Positions 11,358 through 20,147 of a DNA stretch of 64,000 bases are shown here, one piece after another. The DNA lies in NCBI RefSeq assembly GCF_000092205.1, contig NC_014216.1, positions 62,001-126,000 on the forward strand, read 5' to 3'. Below the pieces are notes generated by a model. It did not search any database and was not told where the DNA came from. It saw only the letters and a list, made by a program, of their open reading frames with translations. A program made the translations under genes and the position numbers. The stretch's first letter is position 1; each line of letters starts with the position of its first letter. The stretch is from Desulfurivibrio alkaliphilus AHT 2. GTDB taxonomy: Bacteria > Desulfobacterota > Desulfobulbia > Desulfobulbales > Desulfurivibrionaceae.

Positions 11358-12743
11358 GGGTTATAGTCAAATCTGGTGTATGGGATAACTGAGGAAAATG
11401 GCGTATCATCCAGGTTGATTGATCACCACGACGATCACAGCCAACACAGGAGGATACGCCATGACCAAGTCTACCCCAACCGCTCTTTCACAACAAGGAA
11501 ACAATGTCGCCGACCCGCTTACCGACCTTTTGCGCGATGGTGCCAGGATGCTGATTGCCCAGGCCGTAGAAGCTGAATTACAGGCCTTCATGGCCCAATA
11601 CTCCAGCCGCTTGGAAGATGGCCGCAGGACAGTGGTCCGAAACGGCTATCTTCCCGGTCGCACGATCCAGACCGGAATCGGCGATGTCGAGGTCAAAGTT
11701 CCCAAGGTGCGAGATCGTAGCGGCCAAGGCCTCAAGTTCAACAGCAGTTTGTTGCCGCCTTATCTGAAGCGGGCGCGCAGTGTCGATGAGTTGCTGCCCT
11801 GGCTTTACCTGCGAGGAATTTCCACCGGCGATTACCAGGAGGCCCTGGCCGCACTCCTCGGGGAACAGGCCAAGGGGTTGTCGGCCAACACCATCTCCCG
11901 CTTGAAAGCCAAATGGCTGGCCGAGCACACCAAATGGCGGCAACGTGACCTGAACGGAAAACGCTACGTTTACTGGTGGGTGGATGGCATCTACAGCAAC
12001 GTCCGCATGGATGACAAGCTTTGCCTGCTGGTGATCATTGGAGTTACCGACCAGGGGCACAAGGAACTGATAGCGGTGGAGGATGGCTACCGGGAGTCAA
12101 GCGACAGCTGGTATGAACTTCTCGCCGGGCTGCGGGCTCGGGGCCTGACCACAGGCCCCGAGTTGGCGGTTGGCGATGGTTCCTTGGGGTTCTGGAACGC
12201 CTTGGGCAGGGTCTATCCGAAGACCCGCCACCAACGCTGCTGGGTTCACAAAACGGCCAACGTGCTGAACAAGATGCCCAAAAAGCTTCAGCTCAAGGCC
12301 AAGGCTGATTTGCATGATATCTGGATGGCTGAGACCAAGGAAGATGCCAGCCAGGCTTTTGATCGTATGCTGGCCCGTTTCGAAGACAAATACCCCAAGG
12401 CCATGGAGTGCCTGGCCAAGGACCGGGACGAGTTGCTGGCTTTTTACGATTTTTCCAGCCGAACACTGGGTGCATATCAGGACCACCAACCCCATCGAGT
12501 CGGCCTTTGCCACTGTGCGCCTGCGCAGCAAGAGATCACGGAACTGCGGTTCCAGGGACACCACCCTGACCATGGTCTTTAAGCTGCTGCAAAGCGCTGA
12601 AAAAAGATGGAAAAAGATCAAGGGATTTCGCCGGCTGGCTGAGGTCGTCACCGGCATACAATTCAAAAACGGAATCAAGGTGTCAGATCAACCTATGCGG
12701 ATGGCCGCCTGAGGACTCCGTACACCAGATTTGACAATAACTC
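11358..12743 (+). mobile_element. IS256-family insertion sequence
   Basis: The element is about 1386 bp. Its imperfect terminal inverted repeats are GGGTTATAGTCAAATCTGG on the left and GAGTTATTGTCAAATCTGG as the complement of the right end, both continuing TGTA. It is flanked by a 9-bp direct repeat CCATTAGCT (11349-11357 and 12744-12752), agreeing with the 8-9 bp duplications of IS256 elements. It carries one transposase gene that is now frameshifted. The exact end could shift by a base because of sequence ambiguity at the junction. Confidence 0.92.
11461..12712 (+). pseudogene. IS256-family transposase, frameshifted
   Basis: ATG 11461 has AGGAGG seven bases upstream. The N-terminal part (MTKSTPTALSQQGNN... 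VYWWVDGIYSNVR ... LAVGDGSLGFWNAL) is a typical IS256 mutator-type transposase. It includes the two catalytic Asp regions (WVDG and VGDG). After DELLAFYDF the frame is lost at a T5 run (12450-12454). Homology continues in the next frame as PAEHWVHIRTTNPIESAFATVRLR, to MRMAA and the stop at 12710. Removing one T restores the protein. The catalytic Glu region (NPIES) lies after the break, so this copy should be inactive unless rescued by frameshifting or unless the extra T is a sequencing error. Confidence 0.9.
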
Positions 12744-17167: not shown

Positions 17168-17830
17168 CTATTCGGCAGCCGGCAGATCGTCGGGCAGCTG
17201 GCCAAAACCTTCTTCCACCATGGGCAGCTCGTCGCCGCTATCAGGCCGGTAATCATCGGACACCCGGACCACATAGCGGCCCATCATGTCTTCCATGTAT
17301 TTGTCGAAGGCCTCGCGTTGCTTCTCCAGTAACAGCAGTCGCCGGATACTGTTGCGAACGCTGGTGAAGGGCTGGGTTTCACCGCTCAAGGGGTTGGTGA
17401 ACTCGGTATCCTTGTTGGCCTCGTAGTAATCCTGCACTTCCCGGTCACTGACCGTCACGCTGGCCTGAATTTTTTCCTCCAGAAACATTTCTACCAGAGC
17501 CAGTCTGGCAAGGTACTCCACCCGTTTCCGGTATGCTTCACTCTGATCCAGGCCGGCGCGTACCGCCTCCTGGCGGAACATCTCCCGCTTGATCATCTCA
17601 TCGAACAGGCGATCCTGGCCGTCGGGGGTCTCGTACATCAGCCGCCGGCTTTCCGGCATGCCCTGCAGTTCCTGCTCAACGTCCGAAGGGGTAATGTAGC
17701 TCTCTCCCACCTGGACGATATAGCCTTCTTCGGGAGCCGGGCCGGCTTCGGTGCCGATCATTTCCTGCTTTTCCTGGCCGCAGGCGGCGGCCAGGAAGAG
17801 AACCAACAAAACTGTGATAAAGCTTTTCAT
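17168..17830 (-). CDS. lipoprotein with SurA-like N-terminal domain
   Basis: A 220-residue exported lipoprotein with lipobox LAAACGQ (Cys about 17). The mature part resembles the N-terminal helical domain of SurA/PrsA-type chaperones: VGESYITPSDVEQEL, DRLFDEMIKREMFRQEAVRAGL and VSDREVQDYYEANKD. No parvulin PPIase domain follows. It is likely a periplasmic chaperone. It lies downstream of the octaheme nitrite reductase on the same strand, separated by a hairpin terminator, so a role in cytochrome folding is only a guess. Confidence 0.7.
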   Translation of the reverse strand: MKSFITVLLVLFLAAACGQEKQEMIGTEAGPAPEEGYIVQVGESYITPSDVEQELQGMPESRRLMYETPDGQDRLFDEMIKREMFRQEAVRAGLDQSEAYRKRVEYLARLALVEMFLEEKIQASVTVSDREVQDYYEANKDTEFTNPLSGETQPFTSVRNSIRRLLLLEKQREAFDKYMEDMMGRYVVRVSDDYRPDSGDELPMVEEGFGQLPDDLPAAE

Positions 17831-17932: not shown

Positions 17933-17969
17933 GACAAAGGGCGGGATCAACCTCGTCCCGCCCTTTGTC
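17933..17969 (-). terminator. hairpin terminator after the nitrite reductase
   Basis: GACAAAGGGCGGGA pairs perfectly with TCCCGCCCTTTGTC (14 bp, 9-nt loop) 34 bp after the reductase stop. On the minus strand the following tract (TATCTTGC) is only moderately T-rich. Confidence 0.75.
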
Positions 17970-18003: not shown

Positions 18004-19677
18004 TTAGCGGAGCTTGGCAATTGCTTTGCGCCGCTCCTCGATGGCCTTCTCCAGCAGGGCGATACCTTGCTGGGACTGGGTCATGGAGTAGGCCAGAGAT
18101 TCCCGGGCCTGCTCAGGGTTGTGGAAGCCGTCGGAGTTCTCGGCTACCCACCATTCCCAGTGAGTGTTGGCCTCGGTGTGATGCTTGCGAACCTCGGCCA
18201 GCACGCTTTCGGGCACACCAAGATCTTTGGCGCGAACAAAGGTGTCGATCAGCTCGGCCAGCCAGAACTCGGCCTTGTTGATCTTGCCGCGGACATAGTT
18301 CTTGATGGCGTGAATGGTGTAGTCGGCCCGCTCCGGAGTCCAGTCGTCATGACATACCAGGCAGGTGTTCTCGTAGCCGTGGTACTTGGGGCTGGTCTGG
18401 AAGTGGGAGGTGTACTTAACGCCGGCCTTGGAAACCATCTTCGGCATATGGCAGTCTTTACACTCAACGCCGGCCTGCTCCATCTTGGAGCCCCAGAATA
18501 CTTCCATTTCCGGATGCTGGATCTTCATCTGATCCGCCCCGGTTACCGCGTTGCGGAAGTCGATGAACTTGAAGTCCTCATACATCCGACGGTTGAAGTC
18601 GAAAACGTTGGACCACTGCATCAGGTTGGTGCGTTGGTCAGCCATGGTCACCCGCTCACCGGTAGCGGCGTCGATACCGGGGTTGCAGTTGTACTCAACG
18701 TGGCACTGGGCGCACATCATATTGGAGTCCGGCTCGCTGAGCAGACCGATGGCCCGGAAGCCGTCACGGAACTCAACTTTTTCCACGGTGATCCGCTTGC
18801 TTTTTTCCTTGTCGTAGGGGTAGGTGCCTTCGCCACGATCAACAATGGCCTGAATCTGGGCATCCCGGGTGATCCGCGGCTCGGTGGAGTGCGGGTCGTG
18901 GCAGGTGAAGCAGTTCAGGGCGTGGTTCAAGCTGCGGGCGAAATCAACCACGTTGGAGGTCCGGTCCCACTTGGCCTTGGGATGGGGGTCGCCCATGTAG
19001 GCCCAGTTGAGGATGTTGTCCTGGGATTTGCAGAACATACATACCGGGTTGGCGGCGGTGGCCACCTGGCCCCGGAAAGCCTTCTGGTTGTTGGTTTCCG
19101 GCTCTACATCGTAGAGGATGTTCCAGGCGCCGGCCTGGGCGGCGGCACCGTCACCGATCAGCTCCCAACTCTTGAGCTGGAAACGGCCGCCGTAAGCGCG
19201 ATCCACCAGCAGATGGTCAACCAGCATGAAGACGTGGCTGCGAGGTTCGGCGTGCTCTTTGGTGAAACCATGGGGCCGCATCAGGGTGTCGTAACGGGAG
19301 GTCCGGCCGGTGGGGGTAGCCTTTTCCTCTTTGGGCGGACGGTCCCAGTTTACCTGCAGCATGGAGTTGAACTGCTCGGCATGGCACTGGCCACAGGTGC
19401 GCTGGTCAACGGAGGTGACCGGCTTGACGTTGAAGTTGCGAACGTGGGCCTCGGTCTCGGTGTGGCAGTGGCCGCAGTTGATGCTGGCGTGGCTGCCGCG
19501 GACGTGGAAAGCCTTGATGTCACTGCCCGGGCCGGTGTTGTCGTGGCAGTTGTAGCAGGTGTTAACATCCACCGGCTTTGCCGCCGCCTGGGCGCCGCTG
19601 GCGCCGAACAGGCTCAGGCCGCCTACCAAGGCAAAAGCAACCGCCGCGCCCAAAAGGGACTTAGGGTTTTTAATCAT
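18004..19677 (-). CDS. octaheme nitrite reductase (ONR, TvNiR-like)
   Basis: A 557-residue periplasmic multiheme cytochrome with a signal peptide (residues 1-32). Eight heme sites are visible: CxxCH at 41, 68, 95, 256, 322, 406 and 439, and CMFCK at 213. The Lys-ligated fourth heme is the catalytic heme of NrfA and of Thioalkalivibrio ONR. Other expected active-site residues are present: Arg 146 (EPRSH), Tyr 329 in CHVEYNC and His 388 in QHPEME. Tyr 329-x-Cys 331 matches the Tyr-Cys pair that is cross-linked in TvNiR and absent from pentaheme NrfA. It should reduce nitrite to ammonium with six electrons. AGGAGG precedes the ATG. No NrfH-like quinol partner is adjacent, so the electron donor is unknown. 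Confidence 0.93.
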   Translation of the reverse strand: MIKNPKSLLGAAVAFALVGGLSLFGASGAQAAAKPVDVNTCYNCHDNTGPGSDIKAFHVRGSHASINCGHCHTETEAHVRNFNVKPVTSVDQRTCGQCHAEQFNSMLQVNWDRPPKEEKATPTGRTSRYDTLMRPHGFTKEHAEPRSHVFMLVDHLLVDRAYGGRFQLKSWELIGDGAAAQAGAWNILYDVEPETNNQKAFRGQVATAANPVCMFCKSQDNILNWAYMGDPHPKAKWDRTSNVVDFARSLNHALNCFTCHDPHSTEPRITRDAQIQAIVDRGEGTYPYDKEKSKRITVEKVEFRDGFRAIGLLSEPDSNMMCAQCHVEYNCNPGIDAATGERVTMADQRTNLMQWSNVFDFNRRMYEDFKFIDFRNAVTGADQMKIQHPEMEVFWGSKMEQAGVECKDCHMPKMVSKAGVKYTSHFQTSPKYHGYENTCLVCHDDWTPERADYTIHAIKNYVRGKINKAEFWLAELIDTFVRAKDLGVPESVLAEVRKHHTEANTHWEWWVAENSDGFHNPEQARESLAYSMTQSQQGIALLEKAIEERRKAIAKLR

Positions 19678-20147
19678 TTTCTCCTCCTGCTCCTTCGATT
19701 TGGTTCATATTGAGTAATCATACAATCTGAAATCTACGGTCGCCTCCTGTGGCTCATCACCTCCTTGCGAACAAACGACGTTAAGGTTAATTTTACCCTC
19801 ATCCAAAAGAATAGCTGTTCTATGGTAGCCATTCCCATTTTGGGTTATTTTAACGTCTTTGGTGTAAAGATGTGGTTAACCTCCAGTAAATTATTTATAG
19901 GAAGCTCTTGTTTTTTCTTTGATAACTCAAGGGTTAAACGGGGCAGGAAATTGTGAGCGACGGCTCATAAAATTGACTCTTAATTTGGGTGTATCACCGT
20001 AAATATCCATGTGTCAAGGCAGATATAATGTTGCCAAAACTTTACGGCATGCAACAATGTGGCAGCGATTGGTGGAGTGTTTCCTGATCATTGCAGGGGG
20101 TGACAAAGACAGGCTTTGATAAACAGGCCCGATGAAAGAGGTGTTGG
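19678..20147. promoter_or_regulatory. AT-rich control region of the nitrite reductase and dus
   Basis: This 470-bp divergent gap is clearly poorer in GC than its surroundings. It holds a 20-bp imperfect palindrome TTGTGAGC-N4-GCTCATAA at 19951-19970, resembling CRP/FNR-superfamily operators although the half-site spacing differs from CRP. Two related sites, TTGAGTAATCAT (19710-19721) and TTGATAACTCAA (19919-19930, whose complement is TTGAGTTATCAA), may be a second operator pair. A TATAAT at about 20025 faces dus. No convincing gene is present. Confidence 0.45.

Follow-up and report, generated by a model that had tools for sequence, protein, structure and literature searches.

Organisation of the ONR locus

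The window analysed in this study, a 64-kb stretch of DNA from Desulfurivibrio alkaliphilus AHT2, carries at complement(18004..19677) a gene for an octaheme nitrite reductase (ONR) of the type found in Thioalkalivibrio nitratireducens (TvNiR). The product has 557 aa, an N-terminal signal peptide and eight heme motifs starting at residues 41, 68, 95, 213, 256, 322, 406 and 439; seven are CxxCH and one is CxxCK, in the order 3-1-4, and it is the only open reading frame in the window with more than one CxxCH. The motif CMFCK, which attaches the catalytic heme 4 and contributes lysine 217 (TvNiR Lys188), lies at 19027..19041 on the minus strand. The segment CAQCHVEYNC sets the tyrosine as residue 329 and the cysteine as 331, and the codons Tyr329-Asn330-Cys331 (TvNiR Tyr303/Cys305 in the alignment) lie at 18685..18693, also on the minus strand; both sets of coordinates were calculated from the residue numbers and the gene start at 19677.

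The 470-bp region upstream of the gene (19678..20147, minus strand) is the presumed promoter and regulatory region. It contains a good ribosome-binding site, GGAGGAG, and blocks conserved in Desulfurivibrio dismutans AMeS2, and a promoter scan of it returned nothing above shuffles. Just past the ONR stop codon lies a stem-loop with a 15-bp stem (17933..17969, minus strand, z -4.73), a probable transcription end with a poor T-run on the minus strand; on the strength of this structure, the ONR gene is probably a single-gene transcription unit. Downstream follows a gene for a SurA-N-like secreted protein of 220 aa with a lipoprotein-type signal (17168..17830, minus strand), and this gene follows ONR in each of the three Desulfurivibrio genomes in which the locus was recovered. 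A wider link between the two genes found no support, as among the loci searched outside Desulfurivibrio it recurred once, about 4 kb away (L078). No tRNA or Rfam matches were found in the window. A transposase gene resembling the IS256/mutator type (11419-12712), split over two frames, lies between lapA-like and GGDEF genes; it is missing from the syntenic AMeS2 locus and is therefore probably an insertion, now frameshifted. The Desulfobulbales-like background suggested by a preliminary description of the window is supported.

In betaproteobacterial and Thioalkalivibrio loci, ONR adjoins cytochrome c maturation genes, namely CcmF, a CcmH-type gene and an ABC ATPase that is probably CcmA. Among the betaproteobacterial loci (L024-L093) a CcmF cluster recurred beside ONR in 33 loci, together with the CcmH-type and ABC ATPase genes. 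By analogy with NrfEFG for NrfA, these genes may specifically serve the CxxCK heme. Some family relatives have a tetraheme cytochrome gene next to ONR; the one in L007 belongs to the NapC/NirT family and that in L010 is c3-like. Neither cytochrome c maturation genes nor an adjoining tetraheme cytochrome were found in the 64-kb window.

Active site, fold and family membership

The closest PDB sequence matches were to the enzyme of Thioalkalivibrio paradoxus, TvPaR (E=1.6e-192), and to TaNiR of Trichlorobacter ammonificans (8rv0, 6e-137), the best NrfA giving 7e-23. Given the TvPaR match and the single multi-CxxCH reading frame, a chance origin is excluded. One mark of family membership is more than 40% identity to TvNiR over the whole chain; 281 of 506 aligned residues were identical to TvNiR, and identity to TvNiR and TvPaR was 55-56%. 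TvNiR residues Arg131, Lys188, Glu302, Tyr303, Cys305, Lys358, Gln360 and His361 align, unchanged, with Arg160, Lys217, Glu328, Tyr329, Cys331, Lys385, Gln387 and His388, so that the active-site Tyr, Arg and Cys are all present, as is a histidine located between the sixth and seventh heme sites. The glutamate at the TvNiR Glu302 position serves as a calcium ligand.

The ONR family has been defined by seven CxxCH motifs, one CxxCK and the Tyr, Arg and Cys (PMC5433712; motif order also PMC10716430). A Tyr-Cys bond has been reported in TvNiR (PMC6209398), and by analogy a covalent bond probably joins Tyr329 and Cys331; likewise, TvNiR is a stable homohexamer (PMC5433712), and the Desulfurivibrio ONR probably forms one too. 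The preliminary description had read the Tyr-x-Cys pair as a link to the Thioalkalivibrio enzyme, a reading that did not hold: the pair occurred in 87/87 ONR rows and 0/6 NrfA rows, where the segment reads CHVEYYF. Judged from this alignment, it is therefore a mark of the whole family, with no special Thioalkalivibrio link.

A predicted monomer model (mean pLDDT 80.9), built from the window and locus sequences only, superimposed on TvNiR with Z 49.3 and an rmsd of 1.8 over 508 residues, placing the protein within the ONR fold as far as a predicted model allows; Z was 45.4 to TaNiR and 28.9 to the best NrfA. The motifs (seven CxxCH, one CxxCK and CHVEYNC), the identity, the predicted fold and the trees described below thus agree with the TvNiR-type octaheme enzyme named in the preliminary description. 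Lysine content was 5.7%, compared with 4.1-4.3% in Thioalkalivibrio and 8-11% in the remaining rows compared; low lysine fits the haloalkaliphile adaptation described in PMC5433712.

Distribution and phylogeny

ONR was supposed at the outset to be rare outside sulfur-oxidising gammaproteobacteria. This was contradicted both by a published survey, which lists it for 14 phyla of bacteria and one of archaea (PMC10716430), and by our scans, in which ONR was found at E<=1e-80 in 17/243 genomes of the class, several of them from the window's own family, and 80 ONR loci were returned from Nitrospirota, beta- and gammaproteobacteria, Thermodesulfobacteriota, Chloroflexota and others. One metagenome-assembled genome, Thioalkalivibrio sp. 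LCM1.Bin42, carried two distinct ONR genes, each on its own contig (L044, L052); they may be paralogues or may come from a bin of mixed strains.

In the tree, all ONR rows were separated from NrfA with an SH-aLRT of 100, and the window ONR fell inside the ONR clade; placement outside it, named beforehand as a refuting outcome, did not occur. The window ONR and its AMeS2 ortholog formed a pair (support 100), nested in a clade with TvNiR and the betaproteobacterial and Nitrospirota ONRs (SH-aLRT 99; second tree 96/99), and the ONRs of other family members fell outside this TvNiR-containing clade. Grouping the Desulfurivibrio ONR with those of its own family was rejected (log-likelihood lower by 385, AU p=2.6e-37). 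Desulfurivibrio probably acquired a TvNiR-clade ONR horizontally, as far as sequence comparison can tell; differential retention of old ONR copies would explain the tree as well, and the AU test fits both. The possession of a TvNiR-clade ONR, unlike those of the family relatives, is a mildly new feature of Desulfurivibrio.

In one small genome of the same genus (G007, 1.7 Mb), an ONR remnant was found at L017:1507-2004, corresponding to query residues 367-533 with one internal stop and adjoining a SurA-like gene that is itself frameshifted. In G007 the gene for the 11-heme NapC-like cytochrome described below is also interrupted and no match to NapA was found; taken together, this looks like the loss of the whole nitrate-ammonification pathway, and joint loss of the cytochrome and ONR fits one pathway.

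Physiology and proposed function

D. alkaliphilus, a soda-lake bacterium related to the cable bacteria, grows by oxidising sulfide and reducing nitrate or nitrite to ammonium (Thorup et al. 2017, PMC5516251). Transcriptomics showed its nrfA to be highly expressed and upregulated with nitrate, nrfH and nrfB being absent (PMC5516251). Because the window ONR was the sole protein in the genome to pass the PF02335 cut-off in a profile search, this nrfA is most likely the window ONR. In PMC12142623 the enzyme is called an octaheme ammonifying nitrite reductase in D. alkaliphilus and D. dismutans alike, and the D. dismutans ortholog RS04220 is recorded as upregulated in a DNRA proteome; with PMC5516251, both species are published DNRA bacteria. 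As the enzyme of both has been named and its nitrate induction published, the Desulfurivibrio ONR is already known and is an ordinary member of a known family; the independent evidence from sequence, structure model and trees confirms the published octaheme, rather than pentaheme, assignment.

The gene is thus almost certainly that of the periplasmic octaheme ammonifying nitrite reductase of D. alkaliphilus AHT2, with which the organism most likely turns nitrite into ammonium. Such a role, and its coupling to sulfur compounds, had been put forward in the preliminary description; the first accords with the DNRA growth of the organism (PMC5516251) and nitrate induction in both species, and the second has been published for D. 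alkaliphilus (PMC5516251). The expression proposed there as a check is likewise on record, for nrfA in D. alkaliphilus and for the congeneric ortholog (PMC5516251, PMC12142623). Against this assignment, a second octaheme candidate of D. dismutans mentioned in PMC12142623, RS02855, might reduce nitrite too. The literature consulted describes neither a purified enzyme from D. alkaliphilus nor a knockout.

In the mechanism we propose, the Sec-type signal would export the protein to the periplasm, where eight c-type hemes would be loaded onto it. A periplasmic nitrate reductase (Nap) encoded elsewhere would supply nitrite, which would bind at the lysine-ligated heme 4 near Arg160, Tyr329 and His388; six electrons, reaching the enzyme by a non-NrfH route, would arrive via the other hemes and reduce nitrite to ammonium with no intermediates released. 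The ONR would thereby let both species grow by ammonifying nitrate, the donor being sulfide or H2 in D. alkaliphilus and formate in D. dismutans.

Alternative readings and electron supply

Two other readings of the protein were weighed. According to one, it would be a pentaheme NrfA or an NrfH-NrfA fusion, with the first three hemes appended to NrfA as an electron donor: its C-terminal two thirds are covered by PF02335 and the NrfA models, the NrfH model weakly matches residues 13-86, and a review describes octaheme nitrite reductases as the fusion of a pentaheme with a triheme system (PMC12285233). However, the scores fall far under the NCBIfam cut-offs (94.6 of 595 bits for NrfA and 22.3 of 134.2 for NrfH; another curated NrfA model gave 71.6 of 692.5), the eight heme sites follow the ONR order with the Tyr-x-Cys pair missing from NrfA rows, and ONR and NrfA form separate clades; this reading is extremely improbable, and as a classification of the protein it is refuted by the sequence comparisons. 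The other accepts an ONR and gives it a different main job in place of respiratory ammonification: either it would serve sulfur chemistry, by reducing sulfite or oxidising sulfide to sulfur, or it would rid the cell of toxic nitrite, NO or hydroxylamine. TvNiR does reduce sulfite, hydroxylamine and peroxide (PMC5433712), Thorup et al. suggested elemental sulfur as a possible product of the highly expressed nrfA homolog, and its expression was high during sulfur disproportionation without nitrate (PMC5516251). We nevertheless consider such a main job quite unlikely: nitrate raises expression further in both species (PMC5516251; PMC12142623), the ONR is the sole Nrf/ONR-family enzyme in the genome of a DNRA-growing organism, and the related G007, with no NapA hit, retains a mere broken remnant of the gene.

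With ammonification by an ONR as the preferred reading, its electron supply has to be considered. The absence of an NrfH-like donor nearby, remarked on in the preliminary description, extends further: no NrfH-like gene, nor any second multiheme gene, was found within the 64-kb window, and genome-wide the highest NrfH score was 36.7 bits against a cut-off of 134.2, so the NrfH partner gene of an NrfHA complex was found neither at the ONR locus nor in the genome. In another genome of the genus (G159:C49:2915-4282), an NrfH-like gene scoring 41.7 bits, under the cut-off, lies beside an NrfA-like match with 33% identity to the window ONR; to judge from this locus, both solutions, NrfHA and ONR, seem to occur within the genus.

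A dedicated partner encoded elsewhere could feed the ONR, and the genome offers one concrete candidate for doing so without NrfH. The sole protein passing the NapC/NirT cut-off genome-wide is a membrane-anchored cytochrome of 387 aa with 11 CxxCH motifs and a NapC/NirT N-terminus, encoded outside the window (G000:C1:489444-490607; L103, L106) in a run with genes for rhodaneses and for what we take, from their sequences, to be Fe-S and NrfD/PsrC-like (polysulfide-reductase-like) proteins. It is nearly restricted to Desulfurivibrio, occurring in 4/5 genomes of the genus and 1/22 other family genomes, and in G007 its gene is interrupted where ONR is a remnant and NapA was not found. On the other side, G007 is small and may have lost many other genes, G200 (79% complete) has the cytochrome and no ONR hit, and the sulfur-type operon of the cytochrome fits a polysulfide role too. 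As the donor of ONR the cytochrome is therefore speculative, a lead only, and on balance unlikely to be the partner. Slightly more doubtful still is the fuller scenario in which Desulfurivibrio took up a TvNiR-clade ONR horizontally, without the maturation or cytochrome genes that accompany it in other lineages, and wired it to this genus-restricted cytochrome of a polysulfide/rhodanese operon; if true, electrons would pass directly between the sulfur machinery and nitrite, independently of NrfH.

Comparison with known systems

TvNiR and TvPaR (PDB 2ot4, 3sxq) resemble the Desulfurivibrio ONR in heme number and order, the compared active-site residues, the Tyr-x-Cys pair, fold, clade and the low-lysine composition of haloalkaliphiles. 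In contrast to them, the Desulfurivibrio protein carries an insert of six residues behind the heme 1 motif besides its sequence divergence, and the window ONR has no neighbouring cytochrome maturation genes or cytochromes.

RS04220 of D. dismutans AMeS2 is the ortholog of the window ONR and the closest in the scan (81% identity), and the two share their gene neighbourhood from ssb to trpS; the loci differ in the transposase gene, absent in AMeS2, and at the Glu328 position. There the AMeS2 protein (L019:8001-9647) reads CHVTYNC, with Thr for TvNiR Glu302, the sole such change among the 87 ONR rows, and its calcium binding may differ owing to this change, which goes unmentioned in the passages of PMC12142623 consulted.

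TaNiR also belongs to the ONR family and shares the fold, with 44% identity in the structural alignment, and it ammonifies in vivo, as cited in PMC12142623; it differs in being paired with Nap genes in Trichlorobacter (PMC11972089). The pentaheme cytochrome c nitrite reductase NrfA shares with ONR a homologous catalytic core, the CxxCK heme and the reaction, but has five hemes and CHVEYYF in place of CHVEYNC, forms a separate clade, and is usually partnered by NrfH or NrfB.
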